Assembly: GCF_008195825.1 (NCBI RefSeq)
Contig: NZ_CP043329.1
Coordinates: 3,410,001-3,474,000 of the forward strand
Direction: 5' to 3'
Source of the DNA: Pedobacter aquae
Lineage (GTDB): Bacteria > Bacteroidota > Bacteroidia > Sphingobacteriales > Sphingobacteriaceae
DNA: 64,000 bases
Below, in pieces: positions 11,418 through 17,390 of the stretch (within the stretch, counting starts at the first letter, position 1; each line of letters begins with the position of its first letter). The notes beneath the pieces are model-generated. The model made no database searches. It was not told the DNA's origin and saw nothing but the letters and a program-made list of their open reading frames with translations. A program made the translations under genes and the position numbers.

Positions 11418-12338
11418 CTATGCCCTCGTATCGTTTTTATGATAAATACTTAAATAGCTATCATATCTTGTGGGTTCAATATTTCCTTCGTCTAAGGCTT
11501 TTAAAATGGCGCAACCGGGTTCGTTAATGTGTACGCAGTTATGAAATTTGCAGCCATGCATACGGCTTCGCATCTCTGGAAAGAAATGAGCAAGTTCCTC
11601 TGGTTCTATATCGGCAATGCCTAATTCTCTAATGCCTGGGGTATCAATTAATTTTCCGCCGAAAGGCAATTCAAACATTTCTGCAAAGGTGGTGGTGTGT
11701 TTTCCCATATCGCTCCAATCAGAAATTTCGCCAGTTCTTAAAGCAATACCCGGTATGATCTGATTGATTAAGCTTGATTTTCCAACGCCAGAATGTCCAG
11801 AAAATAAACTAGTCTTATCTTTCAGCAATTCTTTAATGGTATTCACATGGGTGCCTTCTATGGCAGATACCGCATAACATTTATAGCCTATACCTTCATA
11901 CAAATCCATATAATTGGCTAGGATTTCTAGGCCTTCATCGCTAAATAAATCTAGCTTATTAAAGATTAAAATAGCAGGAATTCCATAAGCTTCAGCAGTA
12001 ACCAAAAAACGGTCTATAAAGCCTAAAGAAGTTCTTGGAGAAGCCAAAGTTACCACCAAACAAGCCTGGTCTAAATTAGCAGCAATAACTTGTACTTGTT
12101 TAGATAGGTTGATAGATTTTCTGATGATATAGTTCTTACGGTCATGAATTCTATTGATGACAGCAGTTTCTTGCTCGGGTTCTAGCTCAAAATCAACAAA
12201 ATCTCCAACAGCAACAGGATTGGTGCTTACCAGACCTTTCATCCTGAGTTTGCCTTTTATCCTGCATTCATATTTGTGCTGATTTTCACCTAAAACAGTG
12301 TACCAGCTTCCTGTTGATTTAATAACTAATCCCTGCAT
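11418..12338 (-). CDS. rsgA: Ribosome small subunit-dependent GTPase A
   Basis: A 306-residue circularly permuted GTPase. The order OB-fold, G4 (FNKLDLF), G1 (GHSGVGKSSL), G3 (DTPGIRELG) and the C-terminal zinc site C-x5-H-x-C (CKFHNC...EPGC) is diagnostic. RsgA binds the 30S subunit late in maturation and releases assembly factors on GTP hydrolysis. It is the first gene of the minus-strand series that continues with dtd. Its start is ~290 bp from thrA in the opposite direction, with the thr leader between. Confidence 0.95.
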   Translation of the reverse strand: MQGLVIKSTGSWYTVLGENQHKYECRIKGKLRMKGLVSTNPVAVGDFVDFELEPEQETAVINRIHDRKNYIIRKSINLSKQVQVIAANLDQACLVVTLASPRTSLGFIDRFLVTAEAYGIPAILIFNKLDLFSDEGLEILANYMDLYEGIGYKCYAVSAIEGTHVNTIKELLKDKTSLFSGHSGVGKSSLINQIIPGIALRTGEISDWSDMGKHTTTFAEMFELPFGGKLIDTPGIRELGIADIEPEELAHFFPEMRSRMHGCKFHNCVHINEPGCAILKALDEGNIEPTRYDSYLSIYHKNDTRA

Positions 12339-12393: not shown

Positions 12394-12424
12394 TTTGTAT
12401 TTAAAAAATGAAAGCTTAGATTTG
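12394..12424 (+). promoter_or_regulatory. Bacteroidota-type promoter of the thr operon
   Basis: TTTG at 12394-12397, a 19 bp spacer, then TAGATTTG at 12417-12424. This matches the Bacteroidota housekeeping consensus TTTG-N19-TAnnTTTG exactly. Transcription would start around 12430, about a dozen bases before the leader peptide GTG. Confidence 0.75.
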
Positions 12425-12441
12425 GCACATAATTTAAAAAC

Positions 12442-12495
12442 GTGAATAATAACTATGCAACTACAATTACTTACACCATGACGCTCTGCGCATAG
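12442..12495 (+). CDS. thrL: Threonine operon leader peptide (GTG start)
   Basis: A 17-codon frame reading VNNNYATTITYTMTLCA and ending in TAG at 12493-12495. Five of 17 residues are threonine and one is isoleucine, clustered at codons 7-14, as in the thr leader peptides of other bacteria. It starts with GTG. The only upstream in-frame ATG (12391) is cut off by a stop at 12409. It sits between a strong promoter match and an intrinsic terminator upstream of thrABC, so ribosome pausing on Thr codons is the likely sensor. Confidence 0.75.
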   Translation: MNNNYATTITYTMTLCA

Positions 12496-12496
12496 A

Positions 12497-12540
12497 GGAA
12501 GGTAATTATAGGCTTATATAAAACATACAAAGCGCCTTCC
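12497..12540 (+). promoter_or_regulatory. Candidate antiterminator of the thr attenuator
   Basis: GGAAGG at 12497-12502, two bases after the leader stop codon, is complementary to CCTTCC at 12535-12540 in the 5' arm of the terminator. A ribosome paused at the Thr codons would leave GGAAGG free to pair. One that reaches the stop codon would cover it and let the terminator form. Confidence 0.55.
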
Positions 12541-12566
12541 GACAAAACGGAAGGCGCTTTTTTTTA
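12529..12566 (+). terminator. Intrinsic terminator of the thr attenuator
   Basis: Stem AAGCGCCTTCC / GGAAGGCGCTT with loop GACAAAAC, followed by an unbroken T run. This is a textbook rho-independent terminator only 60 bp before the thrA start, on the same strand, so it must be conditional. Confidence 0.9.
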
Positions 12567-12626: not shown

Positions 12627-15080
12627 ATGAAAATTTTAAAATTCGGAGGAACTTCTGTTGGGTCTGTAGATGCTTTAAAAGCGTTAATAGACGTGGTTAA
12701 AACTAACCTTGATAAGCAAGAACAAATGGTCATTGTTGTTTCTGCTATGGGAGGTGTTACCAACCAATTAATCACGACGGCAGAGAACGCTATAAAAGGA
12801 ATTGATTTTTCTGAAGCTTTGGCTGATATAGAAAAAAGACACTTTGAAGTGGTAAAAGCGTTAATTCCTGTGCAACAACAAAATCAGGTTTTAACCAAAT
12901 TAAAATTATTTTTTCAAGAGCTGGAAGATTTAATGCAAGGTGTTACGGCCTTACAAGAGCTAAGTCCAAAAACTCGTGATGCTATTTTAAGCTATGGCGA
13001 GCAATGCTCGGCTTTTATGATTTCTAGAATCTTAAAAACCATACATGAAGGTGCTGATTACCTAAACACCACAGAAATTATTAAAACTGATAGTACTTTT
13101 GGTAATGCCCGTGTAGATTTTGAACAAAGTAATTTCTTGATCAAGAACTACTTTGAACATCATAAAGATAGTTTAATTGTGGCTACAGGTTTTATAGCTA
13201 GCGATGACCAAAACAGGGTAACAACTCTTGGTCGTGGTGGTAGTGATTATACTTCTGCCATCATTGGTGCGGCTTTAAATGTATCGCAAATAGAAATCTG
13301 GACAGATGTTAATGGCATGATGACTGCCGATCCAAGAAGGGTAAAAAAAGCATTTTCTTTAGAAGAACTTTCTTATACCGAGGCTATGGAGCTTTCTTTC
13401 TTTGGGGCAAAGGTGATTTATCCGCCAACCATGATTCCGGCTTTCTTAAAGAAAATTCCAATTGTTATTAAAAATACTTTTGATGCTAGTTTCCCAGGAA
13501 CTTTTATCAAACATGATATCAAGCCATCATCAACCGTTATCAGAGGGATTTCTTCTGTAGACCATATCAGCATTATCAATTTGCAAGGTAGTGGCATGGT
13601 TGGTAAAGCGGGTTTTAGCGGCAGGTTATTCTCTTTACTGTCTAGAGAGCAGGTAAACGTAGTTTTAATTACACAATCATCATCAGAGCACTCTATCACT
13701 TTTGCGGTTAACCCTGAGGATGCTAAAAAAGCACAAGCTTTAATTCAGCAAGAGTTTGAGTTAGAATTACAAGCCGGAAAATTAGAGCCTATCACCATAG
13801 AACATGATCTTTCTATTTTAGCCATCGTAGGCGAAAATATGAAGAAAACACCGGGTATTGCCGGAAAACTTTTCCATGCTTTAGGTAGAAATGGTGTTAA
13901 TGTGGTTGCTATAGCGCAAGGTTCATCAGAATACAATATCTCGGTAATTATTTATAATTCCGATTTGACAAAAGCTTTAAATACCGTACACGATGCGTTT
14001 TTTGCACAATTGCAAAAGAACTTAAACGTATTTATTGTTGGTGTGGGTAATATCAGTAAAGAATTGCTTTCGCAGATAAATGCTCATCATGCTTATTTAG
14101 TAGAAAATAATCTCATCAATATCAAAATCATCGGTTTAACCAACACTAAAAAAATGTTGATAGAGCCAGCTGGTATAGATTTAGCTAATTGGCAACAAAG
14201 CTTAGATGAATCAACCGAGCCTGCAGATTTAAATAAATTTGTGAGTGAGATGAAGAGCTTAAACCTACCAAACTGCGTATTTGTAGATAATACTGCAAGC
14301 CCAATTCCAAGTACTTTATATAAAGATATTTTCAAGTCGAATATTTCCGTGGTTACTTGCAATAAAATTGCTAACTCTGGCGATTATAAGCAGTTTGCAG
14401 ATTTAAGAAGTACTGCTCAGAAATACGGAGTAGATTTCTTGTACGAAACCAACGTAGGTGCTGGTTTACCTATCATCACCACATTACATGATTTAATCAT
14501 CAGTGGCGATAAAATCACCAAGATAGAAGCTATTCTTTCTGGTACCATCTCTTTCATTTTTAATAATTTTAAAGGTGATGTTACTTTCCACGATGTAGTT
14601 AAGCAAGCACAAGAAAAAGGTTATACAGAGCCAGATCCTCGTGATGATTTAGGTGGGATTGATTTTATGCGTAAAATATTAATCTTAGCCAGAAATAGTG
14701 GTTTAGCAATGGAAGCTGCTGATGTAGATTTAGGAGCTATTTTACCAGAAAATTGCGCTAAAGCACCAACTGTTGAAGCTTTTTATCAAGAGCTAAAAGT
14801 TTCTAACGATTATTTTGAACAGCTTAAAAAAGATGCTGAAAAACAAGGTAAAGTACTTCGTTACATTGGAAAATTAGAAAACGGTAAAGCAAGCATTAGC
14901 CTGCAAGCAGTAGGTATGGATCATCCTTTCTACGCTTTATCTGGTAGCGATAACATTATAGCTTTCACCACCGAGAGGTATTGTGAAACACAAATGGTAG
15001 TAAAAGGGCCTGGTGCTGGTGCTGCGGTTACCGCTGCTGGTGTATTTGCCGATTTAGTTAAAGTAGGAGCTAACCAGTAA
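12627..15080 (+). CDS. thrA: Bifunctional aspartokinase I / homoserine dehydrogenase I
   Basis: A full-length 817-residue fusion. Residues ~1-290 are the aspartokinase (KFGGTSVGS at the N-terminus, TLGRGGSDYTSA in the nucleotide site). Residues ~305-455 hold tandem ACT domains. Residues ~465-815 are homoserine dehydrogenase (FIVGVGNISKELL Rossmann start, EANVGAGLP equivalent as ETNVGAGLPII, then GTISFIFN). It catalyses the first and third steps from aspartate to threonine and methionine, and the ACT domains normally mediate feedback inhibition by threonine. It shares one base with thrB (TAATG). Expression is probably controlled by the upstream leader/terminator. Confidence 0.97.
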   Translation: MKILKFGGTSVGSVDALKALIDVVKTNLDKQEQMVIVVSAMGGVTNQLITTAENAIKGIDFSEALADIEKRHFEVVKALIPVQQQNQVLTKLKLFFQELEDLMQGVTALQELSPKTRDAILSYGEQCSAFMISRILKTIHEGADYLNTTEIIKTDSTFGNARVDFEQSNFLIKNYFEHHKDSLIVATGFIASDDQNRVTTLGRGGSDYTSAIIGAALNVSQIEIWTDVNGMMTADPRRVKKAFSLEELSYTEAMELSFFGAKVIYPPTMIPAFLKKIPIVIKNTFDASFPGTFIKHDIKPSSTVIRGISSVDHISIINLQGSGMVGKAGFSGRLFSLLSREQVNVVLITQSSSEHSITFAVNPEDAKKAQALIQQEFELELQAGKLEPITIEHDLSILAIVGENMKKTPGIAGKLFHALGRNGVNVVAIAQGSSEYNISVIIYNSDLTKALNTVHDAFFAQLQKNLNVFIVGVGNISKELLSQINAHHAYLVENNLINIKIIGLTNTKKMLIEPAGIDLANWQQSLDESTEPADLNKFVSEMKSLNLPNCVFVDNTASPIPSTLYKDIFKSNISVVTCNKIANSGDYKQFADLRSTAQKYGVDFLYETNVGAGLPIITTLHDLIISGDKITKIEAILSGTISFIFNNFKGDVTFHDVVKQAQEKGYTEPDPRDDLGGIDFMRKILILARNSGLAMEAADVDLGAILPENCAKAPTVEAFYQELKVSNDYFEQLKKDAEKQGKVLRYIGKLENGKASISLQAVGMDHPFYALSGSDNIIAFTTERYCETQMVVKGPGAGAAVTAAGVFADLVKVGANQ

Positions 15081-16012
15081 TGAGCAGTAAATCAATAAAA
15101 GTATATGCCCCAGCTACTGTTGCTAATGTGGTGTGTGGTTTTGATATTTTGGGCTTCGCTGTTAATGAACCGGGCGATGAACTCATCATGGATCTATGCG
15201 ATAAACCTGGCGTAGTCATAAGCTCTATAGAAGGCGATGGTGGTAAATTACCTCTCGATGCCGACCGTAACACAGTAGCTGCAGGTGTTAAAAGCATATT
15301 AAAACAACTTGGTCGTGAAGACATCGGCGTTAAGCTAAAACTAAAGAAAAAAATGCCTTTAGGTAGTGGCTTAGGTTCTAGTGCAGCTAGTTCTGTAGCG
15401 GGTATATTTGCTATTAACGAATTATTAGACAGGCCTTTAAGCAAAGAAGAATTACTGCCTTTTGCTATGGAAGGCGAGGCTTTAGCTTGTGGCCATGGTC
15501 ATGCCGATAATGTTGCACCTGCTTTATTTGGCGGTTTTACCCTCATTAAAAGTTATGAGCCTTTAGAGGTGATAGCTTTACCAGTGCCAAATTTATATTG
15601 CGCTTTATTGTATCCGCATGTTGATGTACCTACTAGAGATGCCAGACAAATTATACGTTCTAAAGTATTGTTAAAAGATGCAGTTACCCAATGGGGAAAT
15701 ATTGCTGGCCTAATAAGTGCTTTATATCTGGGAGATTACGATTTACTTGGACGTTGTATGAAAGATGTTATTGTAGAGCCCATACGCTCTATGTTGATAC
15801 CAGAGTTTTATAAAATGAAGGAAATAGCCATGCACCACGGTGCTTTAGGTTTTGGTATCTCGGGTTCGGGACCAACTGTTTTTTCTTTATTCCGTTCGCC
15901 GGATGACGCACAAAGGGTATTATTAACCTTACAACAAGTGCTTTTAGACAAAGGTATCGCCAGTAACATATATTTATCAGAAATTAATAAAAACGGACCA
16001 GTTATACTATAG
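15080..16012 (+). CDS. thrB: Homoserine kinase
   Basis: A 310-residue GHMP-family kinase with the ATP-binding loop PLGSGLGSSAASSVAG, the N-terminal APATVANVVCGFDILG and the C-terminal FGISGSGPTVFSL motif. It phosphorylates L-homoserine to O-phosphohomoserine in the cytoplasm. The start codon overlaps the thrA stop by one base, so translation is coupled. It is followed after 73 bp, including an octamer repeat tract, by thrC. Confidence 0.96.
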   Translation: MSSKSIKVYAPATVANVVCGFDILGFAVNEPGDELIMDLCDKPGVVISSIEGDGGKLPLDADRNTVAAGVKSILKQLGREDIGVKLKLKKKMPLGSGLGSSAASSVAGIFAINELLDRPLSKEELLPFAMEGEALACGHGHADNVAPALFGGFTLIKSYEPLEVIALPVPNLYCALLYPHVDVPTRDARQIIRSKVLLKDAVTQWGNIAGLISALYLGDYDLLGRCMKDVIVEPIRSMLIPEFYKMKEIAMHHGALGFGISGSGPTVFSLFRSPDDAQRVLLTLQQVLLDKGIASNIYLSEINKNGPVIL

Positions 16013-16085: not shown

Positions 16086-17390
16086 ATGAAACTATACAGT
16101 ACCAAAAACCATCATTTATCGGTTGATTTTAAGACAGCAGTTTTCAATAGCCTTCCGGCAGATAATGGTTTATATATGCCTACCACTATCCCAGTTTTAG
16201 ATGAAAATATCATTGCTGGTTGGGATAAGAAATCTTTACCAGAAATTGCTTTCGATTTAGCCTATGCTTTATTAAAAGATGATATTTCTGCCGAAGCTTT
16301 AAAAGCTATTGTAGATGATGCTGCAAATTTTGAGGCTCCTTTACATCCTTTAGCTGATGATGTTTTTATTCTAGAGTTATTCCATGGTCCGTCTTTAGCC
16401 TTTAAAGATTTTGGAGGGCGTTTCATGAGCCGTATCATGGCGCATTTCTTAAAGGAAGAGGAAAAAGAAATCAGGATTTTAGTAGCTACCTCTGGCGATA
16501 CAGGAGGTGCAGTAGCCTTAGGTTTTTTAAATGTACCGGGTATAAAAGTTACCATTCTTTACCCAAAAGGTAAGGTAAGTTTAATACAAGAATTGCAATT
16601 AACTACCAATGGTAATAATATAGAAGCCGTAGAAATTGATGGTACTTTTGATGATTGCCAAGCTATGGTAAAGCAAGCTTTTCATGATGAAGAGTTAAAT
16701 GCTAAGTTTAATCTTACCTCTGCAAATTCTATCAATATCAGCAGGTTAATACCTCAAATGTTTTACTATGCCAATACTTATGCCCGCTTAAAGCAACAGT
16801 TTGAGCATATTACTTTTGTTACGCCAAGTGGTAACTTCGGTAATATAGCGGCTGGTATGTTAGCTTCTAAAATGGGTGTGCCTATAAAACAATTTATAGC
16901 AGCTACAAATAGTAATGATATTGTTCCTCAGTATTTAAAAACTGGCGTTTATACGGCAAAACCTTCCGTACAAACCTTAGCTAACGCTATGGATGTTGGT
17001 AATCCTAGTAATTTTGTAAGGATACTAGATATGTTTGATAAGGATAAAACTAAACTAGAAGCAGCATTTGATGCTGTAGCATTTGATGATGATGCTATCA
17101 AAGTGGCAATCAAAGAAGTTTATCAGGAAAAGCAATATATCATGTGCCCACATACGGCTACTGGTTATTTAGCAGTAAAAGAGGCCAAGGCAAAAAACCA
17201 ATTAGATAAGCATGCTTATGTAGTTTTGGCTACGGCACATCCTTGCAAATTCCCTGATGTTTTTGAGGAATTGCACATTCCTTATGAAGTACCTGCACAA
17301 GTAGCAGAGCTATATCATAAAGCAAAACATCAAATTGTGATGGATAACAGCTATCAAAACTTTAAGGATTATTTGTTATCGCAATCATAA
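16086..17390 (+). CDS. thrC: Threonine synthase
   Basis: A 434-residue PLP enzyme. The lysine that binds PLP lies in SLAFKDFGGRFMSR, and the phosphate-binding region is ATSGDTGGAVALGF. It converts O-phosphohomoserine to L-threonine, the last step of the operon's pathway. The size fits the shorter bacterial (E. coli-like) class. The stop codon TAA at 17388-17390 lies inside the first unit of the CCCTGAAAGGG repeat array, so the repeat begins exactly at the end of the gene. Confidence 0.97.
   Translation: MKLYSTKNHHLSVDFKTAVFNSLPADNGLYMPTTIPVLDENIIAGWDKKSLPEIAFDLAYALLKDDISAEALKAIVDDAANFEAPLHPLADDVFILELFHGPSLAFKDFGGRFMSRIMAHFLKEEEKEIRILVATSGDTGGAVALGFLNVPGIKVTILYPKGKVSLIQELQLTTNGNNIEAVEIDGTFDDCQAMVKQAFHDEELNAKFNLTSANSINISRLIPQMFYYANTYARLKQQFEHITFVTPSGNFGNIAAGMLASKMGVPIKQFIAATNSNDIVPQYLKTGVYTAKPSVQTLANAMDVGNPSNFVRILDMFDKDKTKLEAAFDAVAFDDDAIKVAIKEVYQEKQYIMCPHTATGYLAVKEAKAKNQLDKHAYVVLATAHPCKFPDVFEELHIPYEVPAQVAELYHKAKHQIVMDNSYQNFKDYLLSQS

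Follow-up and report, generated by a model that had tools for sequence, protein, structure and literature searches.

The window, a stretch of 64,000 nucleotides (G000:C1:3410001-3474000), is part of the 3.85-Mb genome of Pedobacter aquae (G000). It carries the genes thrA, thrB, and thrC in the order observed in E. coli and on one strand (+). thrA (12627-15080) encodes a fused aspartate kinase/homoserine dehydrogenase and is the first gene under the proposed control. Its product is 97-99% identical to ThrA of Pedobacter puniceum and P. glucosidilyticus and is collinear with E. coli ThrA, with 37% identity in an 817-column alignment. The products of thrB (15080-16012) and thrC (16086-17390) match their E. 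coli counterparts at 38.8% and 43.9% identity, respectively. The nearest upstream ORF listed (11418-12338) is on the minus strand, so no plus-strand gene seen there needs the terminator stem found at 12529-12560.

Upstream of thrA, on the same strand, TTTG (12394-12397) and TAGATTTG (12417-12424) are separated by 19 nt; the pair fits the Bacteroidota promoter consensus and is taken as a promoter of that type. A putative promoter at 12394-12424 had been claimed in the original prediction and is present there; it is presumably the one used in vivo. Of 90 related loci, 83 have a TAn(1-3)TTTG/A match no more than 70 nt 5' to their leader start, and two of the seven misses (L040, L073) offer less than 15 nt of sequence in that place.

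The leader peptide ORF (12442-12495, + strand) has a GTG start, encodes VNNNYATTITYTMTLCA, with five Thr and one Ile, and ends in a TAG stop at 12493-12495. The Thr-rich frame of 17 codons with a single Ile, as first proposed, is thus found at 12442-12492. An internal ATG at 12454 was considered as the leader start and rejected. The three nearest relatives (L002-L004) have ATA in its place, so it is not conserved, leaving the GTG frame as the conserved one. In the same three relatives, Ala6 of the window leader is replaced by Thr.

The region between the leader and thrA contains segments that can pair in mutually exclusive ways. Segment 1 is the Thr codon block (12465-12495), in which AATTACTT at 12465-12472 pairs with 12500-12507; the minimum free energy (MFE) fold of the leader region also has a small hairpin at the end of the ORF (12477-12495). 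Segment 2 (12497-12507, GGAAGGTAATT) has either the codon block (helix 1:2) or the 5' arm of the terminator (helix 2:3) as its partner. It begins with GGAAGG at 12497-12502, right after the leader stop and able to pair with the terminator arm, as had been claimed. In the antiterminator 2:3 (12497-12540), GGAAGGT at 12497-12503 pairs with 12534-12540, and GCTT at 12512-12515 forms inner pairs with AAGC at 12530-12533; the MFE of the stretch that runs from the Thr block as far as the terminator loop is -14.2 kcal/mol. The terminator 3:4 (12529-12565) has 13 pairs, 12529-12541 with 12548-12560, and a U-tract that runs to 12565. Its stem ends 66 nt before the thrA ATG, close to the distance of about 60 bp originally given for the intrinsic terminator. 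All elements described are on the plus strand. The order of the four parts in the original prediction therefore stands, while the 1:2 protector formed by the codon block and the GGAAGG segment, which the switch needs, had been left undescribed.

An alignment of thrA upstream regions from relatives had been proposed as a check. In 90 of 90 distinct loci with ThrA identity of at least 61% (L001, L031-L110, L006, L021, L022, L025-L030), the Thr-rich frame is kept, and thrA is preceded by a leader ORF rich in Thr and Ile and, after it, a terminator. The leaders were located by rule in 85 cases and by hand in five (L058, L090, L098, L099, L029); the duplicate locus L020 passed the rule too, and for L049 the terminator was reset manually. 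On non-redundant upstream regions, the ORF-plus-terminator rule accepts 54 of 58, and the remaining four were found by hand. For comparison, the same rule accepts 8 of 1160 dinucleotide-block shuffles and, among 464 windows taken from within thrA, five. The leader was not found at the two aspartokinase paralogues of the P. aquae genome (L119, L120), and it is also absent from three family members with a more distant ThrA of 48-51% identity (G021, G024, G025).

Three helices were tested on alignment A1, which is made up of 58 non-redundant leaders. All three were defined by eye and by folding on the A1 sequences themselves, which favours them over slid controls. The terminator helix 3:4 has 93.6% of cells paired and eight pairs changed on both sides. 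Its covariation is 0.290, versus 0.158 (sd 0.010) for shuffled and 0.033-0.147 for slid controls, and the covariation score of each of 1:2, 2:3, and 3:4 was reached by 0 of 500 shuffles. Leader and hairpins could, instead of causing termination, act on the translation of thrA or the stability of its mRNA, and the hisG leader of the P. aquae genome, which has no U-tract terminator, indicates that leader control without termination may exist in the lineage. The thr leader, in contrast, possesses a covarying 13-bp hairpin with a U-tract that passes the automatic rule in 54/58 regions. The stem also stops short of the thrA start, by 66 nt in the window and by 16 to ~200 nt in relatives, and control at these other levels is considered very improbable.

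The leader frames are 16-27 codons long across the 90 loci, and Thr and Ile make up 26-63% of the codons in every one of them, with a mean composition of 30% Thr and 19% Ile. By rule, the start is ATG in 76, GTG in 12, and TTG in two, and all four Thr codons occur. The GTG start of the window leader was counted against attenuation. On the frame core, the synonymous share of differing codon pairs is 29% in frame (1446/4925), versus 17% (706/4092) and 21% (879/4254) in the shifted frames; five codons were compared in frame and four in the shifted frames, and the pairs are not independent. This excess of synonymous change is a mild mark of translation. It bears on the idea that the leader is an untranslated RNA sensor (a T-box, a riboswitch, or a protein-bound leader) in which the ORF is incidental. 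Terminator/antiterminator switches are indeed common to all three. However, the window has no match to any Rfam family at or above gathering score, a Thr/Ile-clustered coding frame with more synonymous change than shifted frames is found in 90/90 loci, and the position of the leader stop codon is kept at the antiterminator arm. Such a sensor is scarcely to be expected here.

For the antiterminator 2:3, in which GGAGGAAG pairs with the 5' arm of the terminator, 75.6% of A1 cells are paired and nine pairs are changed on both sides. Covariation is 0.197, versus 0.151 (sd 0.010) shuffled and 0.072-0.134 slid. When arms were swapped between species, own arms had a mean of -15.4 versus -13.9, and 0 of 5000 permutations were as good. 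The GGAAGG/CCTTCC pairing, for which covariation had been suggested as a check, thus does covary. In L027, the terminator arm is GCGTCCCGAT and CGGGGC takes the place of GGAAGG; L028 is changed on both sides too. The antiterminator of the window is short and among the weakest of the set; the average foreign arm would pair with its segment 2 better, by 3.1 kcal/mol, than its own arm does.

The protector 1:2, formed by the codon block with the GGAGGAAG segment and beyond, has 74.5% of A1 cells paired. Its covariation is 0.238, versus 0.182 (sd 0.011) shuffled and 0.079-0.133 slid; for the core hairpin alone, it is 0.265 versus 0.181 shuffled. In the arm swap, own arms gave -17.8 versus -14.2 (z -9.1), with 0 of 5000 permutations as good. 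The number of 1:2 pairs changed on both sides does not go beyond controls (77/500 shuffles as high; 12-16 in slid controls versus 12), nor does the number of further pair types (168/500 shuffles as high), and the same two counts for the core hairpin are likewise within controls (395/500 and 253/500). The protector is therefore beyond controls in its covariation score and swap test, and two of five count measures are not. In 54 of the 58 leaders, 4 nt or more of the antiterminator arm are paired to the codon region upstream in the MFE fold. An Ile/Thr switch at codon 49-51 (second base U/C) tends to match column 91 (Fisher p 0.002), with 21 UA, 17 CG, 9 UG, 6 CA, and 5 other pairs, while the second Ile/Thr column pair tested (53/88) has no association (Fisher p 1). 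That the hairpin is a constitutive terminator, which ends a stand-alone sRNA or insulates thrABC and leaves the Thr-rich frame as a by-product, would fit a promoter and a terminator within ~135 nt, but neither a plain terminator nor an sRNA needs 1:2 and 2:3 to covary, the leader-terminator unit tracks one thrA clade, and this explanation has next to no probability.

In many relatives, the antiterminator arm is GGAGG(AAG), a Shine-Dalgarno-like word that adjoins the leader stop (A1 columns 80-88; 12497-12502 in the window). Such a word may be usable as a structural arm, as ribosomes of Bacteroidia reportedly ignore such words (PMC9976891).

The spacing of these elements can be compared with the reach of a ribosome. 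Across the 58 leaders, a median of 12 nt (range 0-17) separates the end of the last Thr codon from the antiterminator arm, and the start of the stop codon is at -1 to +22 nt relative to the arm start (median +9). In the window, the last Thr codon is ACG at 12481-12483, the stop is at 12493-12495, and the arm is at 12497-12503. The footprint of a ribosome usually extends ~12 nt beyond its A site. In most leaders, stalling on the last Thr codon would thus break 1:2 but keep the arm accessible, and a ribosome at the stop codon would cover all or part of the arm. In 7/58 leaders, the last Thr codon is less than 9 nt from the arm, which a stalled ribosome might reach. In 9/58, the stop is 21-22 nt past the arm start, and the arm would be covered partly, by the trailing side of the ribosome.

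The thrABC leader is, with a probability of about 0.9, a complete ribosome-mediated transcription attenuator that senses charged tRNA-Thr, and Ile as well in relatives. Attenuation by stalling at Thr codons, the core of the original prediction, is supported by frame conservation, covarying helices, and spacing. The leader has clustered end-product codons, a terminator before the first gene, an exclusive antiterminator, the protector 1:2, and a stop codon placed to mask segment 2. These parts, their order, conservation, covariation, and spacing are read directly from the sequence and its comparison. What the RNA and the ribosome would do with them, namely dependence on tRNA-Thr, ribosome-polymerase coupling, and the actual fold changes, we infer from that arrangement.

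In the proposed switch, RNA polymerase would start ~10 nt 5' of the 17-codon leader ORF. When charged tRNA-Thr is plentiful, the ribosome at the stop codon would mask segment 2, segment 3 would be free, and 3:4 would form, stopping transcription before thrA. When it is scarce, the ribosome would stall on the Thr codons in segment 1 and break 1:2; the 2:3 antiterminator could then form and polymerase would enter thrABC. If the leader is untranslated, 1:2 would form, segment 2 would be hidden, and the terminator would form. With five Thr codons and one Ile codon, Thr is predicted to be the main signal in the window. Ile is probably sensed too in many Mucilaginibacter-type relatives, as their Ile codons are about as many as their Thr codons. 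Attenuation by a stalled ribosome needs ribosome and polymerase moving together.

The reach of the thr leader was followed with R1, a Sphingobacteriaceae model made up of helices 1:2 and 3:4. The window, one of the training rows of R1, scores 77.8 bits. In a 296-genome sample of the phylum, matches before thrA score 77.8-127.3 bits in the eight family genomes it includes, and the next match anywhere scores 54.0. R1 is a clean phylum detector only at 77 bits or more. Matches at 38-54 bits comprise both ordinary terminators and leaders that belong to other amino-acid operons, so the R1 tally of 143/296 genomes is no count of thr leaders. By eye, 12 loci among the lower matches are leaders of other amino-acid operons, with one ilv leader in the P. 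aquae genome; of nine secondary matches in other family genomes (38-42 bits), none is leader-like. The pattern CCCC..GGGG..CATATMAT was discarded as a general signature, as it occurs in 24/295 genomes and 8 of its 27 matches are known thrA leaders.

R1 was also run on 63 stretches, most of them from upstream of thrA outside the family, and has five matches there at E <= 1: the two strands of L127, two in L140, and one downstream of thrA in L143. The L140 match (28.6 bits) is the terminator of the gene upstream and was rejected as a thr leader. At L127:1363-1473 (G071, family f36; ThrA 60% identical), a similar leader is found at thrA with 30.8 bits. It contains Thr, Ile, and Met codons (MTTIMSIMGDVQSWR) and resembles the Sphingobacteriaceae leaders, here called the first type. 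In the ThrA tree, 16 leader-bearing ThrA lie on one side of a branch (96/93) and L127 is their sister; the leader tracks the ThrA clade. At L127, gene and leader may have moved together.

Other leaders were observed in the same genome. Before ilvE-ilvD (L228:508-633), there is an Ile/Val/Leu leader, MILTALITVIIFLPILLGMQLKACFN, with a GAAGGCATG arm and a terminator TGCCTTC...GAAGGC followed by a U-tract; it is a candidate branched-chain amino-acid attenuator and a lead to follow. The hisG leader (L245:1365-1427, outside the window) encodes MKKFLTTVHHHIHHHLGGAL and has a codon hairpin, CACCAC-TTAG-GTGGTG. In His leaders of the family, a long-range helix joins the bases immediately 5' of the leader start to those immediately 5' of hisG, and 36/41 regions were used for it. 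In its arm swap, own arms gave -12.3 versus -9.4 swapped, with 0/5000 as good; RNAalifold gives no consensus structure on the his-leader alignment, and the helix rests on inspection and the swap test. The U-tract terminator rule accepts 2/41 hisG upstream regions, both of them the codon hairpin itself. By rule, only 14/41 hisG regions contain a codon hairpin that is perfect over 5 bp or more, so that for his the case for the hairpin is weaker than that for the helix. The hisG leader is possibly a case of translational control.

A second type of Thr leader is seen outside the family, in which the last Thr codons and the stop form a perfect GC hairpin of 4-7 bp, e.g., CCCC/GGGG, GGGG/CCC, or ACAACCC/GGGTTGT. 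A Thr/Ile-rich ORF with such a stop hairpin occurs in 23/54 thrA upstream regions versus 2/1080 shuffles, 54 of the 57 regions outside the family having been used. These loci belong to other families (L135, L136, L138, L143, L145, L146, L147, L150, L151, L153-L157, L161, L162, L164, L166-L169, L174, L178). A U-tract terminator is found in 0/23 of them by the rule that finds 54/58 first-type leaders. In several, CATATAAT is seen by eye ~10-15 nt downstream.

Further leader ORFs with terminators were seen in other Bacteroidota families among the weaker R1 matches (L216-L219, L221, L222, L224-L227), with gene names read from translations. Ile/Val leaders precede ilvD in L216, L218, L222, L225, and L227 and ilvE in L219 and L221. 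His leaders are found in L217 (HHHHHH) and L224 (hisG), and a Thr/Lys leader in L226 (asd). In L220 and L223 (family f54), two Ile-rich leader ORFs stand in tandem before an ilvN-like gene, each with its own terminator, a possible double attenuator. The second-type Thr, hisG, and ilv leaders beyond the window are leads and not conclusions.

Taken more widely, leader-peptide control of amino-acid operons may have arisen independently in Bacteroidota and be standard there in at least two forms, a tentative reading to which we give somewhat less than even odds. One form would be the classical terminator, as for thr in Sphingobacteriaceae and for ilv and his in other families. The other would have no U-tract terminator: at thrA in many families, the last regulatory codons and the stop would build a short GC hairpin, and at hisG of the P. 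aquae genome, codons and stop would lie within a long-range helix ending directly upstream of the gene. If true, the latter would represent a new kind of leader-peptide switch. Working leaders would also demonstrate ribosome-polymerase coupling in Bacteroidota, whose ribosomes are described as making no use of Shine-Dalgarno pairing (PMC9976891), and would provide a simple reporter for it. In this soil group, thrABC and ilvE-ilvD, and probably hisG, are predicted to respond to amino acids.

Among known elements of the phylum, Bacteroid-trp (RF01692) presumably belongs to tryptophan genes. Like the thr leader, it is cis-regulatory in Bacteroidota; no match in the window comes up to its gathering score. 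The Bacteroidetes/Chlorobi are reportedly touched on in a 2004 survey by Vitreschak et al. Table 1 of PMC2864571 lists Bacteroid-trp as a Bacteroidota cis-regulatory motif. For Flavobacterium psychrophilum, "strong clues" for leader-peptide attenuation before amino-acid operons and conserved 5' elements before pheA and hisG are described (PMC9723704). These elements resemble the thr leader in preceding Bacteroidota amino-acid operons without Rfam hits. They differ in that the relevant passages of that paper contain no comparative test of alternative helices, and the words threonine and thrA are absent from its main text. Short ORFs of B. thetaiotaomicron have also been called reminiscent of leader peptides (PMC7366714). 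The original statement that no characterised example was known in the phylum is thus too broad, as PMC9723704 shows that the phylum is not blank, but it holds for threonine to the extent that no description of a Bacteroidota Thr leader was found among the matches listed in the open-licence literature, mostly titles and abstracts. A gammaproteobacterial origin of amino-acid attenuators with very few transfers has been suggested (PMC3766115).

Against the Rfam family Thr_leader (RF00506), the window scores 31.6 bits, versus a gathering cut-off of 55, which is exceeded in 0/61 family genomes and 1/14 control genomes; membership was rejected on this score. Weak RF00506 matches are unspecific, with some at E <= 1 in 61/61 family genomes, and two other places in the P. 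aquae genome score higher than the window (35.3 and 34.6 bits). The current Rfam model thus overlooks this class of leader.

The E. coli thr attenuator works by the classical 1:2/2:3/3:4 logic. Its 21-codon leader thrL has Thr/Ile codons, a terminator before thrA, and the thrABC order, all in common with the window. On 5.1 kb of E. coli sequence, R1 finds exactly thrL and its attenuator (190-310, 35.6 bits, E 1e-5), a weak match given that ordinary terminators score 38-42 bits in whole genomes. Similarity of the RNA by itself does not distinguish descent from convergence. In the ThrA tree, E. coli is on a very long branch of its own, far from all Bacteroidota ThrA, and the tree lends no support to the reading, held to be the less likely, that leader and ThrA share their origin with those of E. 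coli. Since E. coli ThrA is far outside and many Bacteroidota ThrA have another leader type or none found, a separate origin of the Pedobacter-type thr leader is likelier than descent from a shared one. The presence of the attenuator in 90/90 close relatives checked, with a ThrA of a distant lineage and a score below the Rfam cut-off, likewise argues for independent origin. By its predicted pairings, the thr leader follows the classical attenuator logic already known from E. coli and is placed outside RF00506 by the cut-off.
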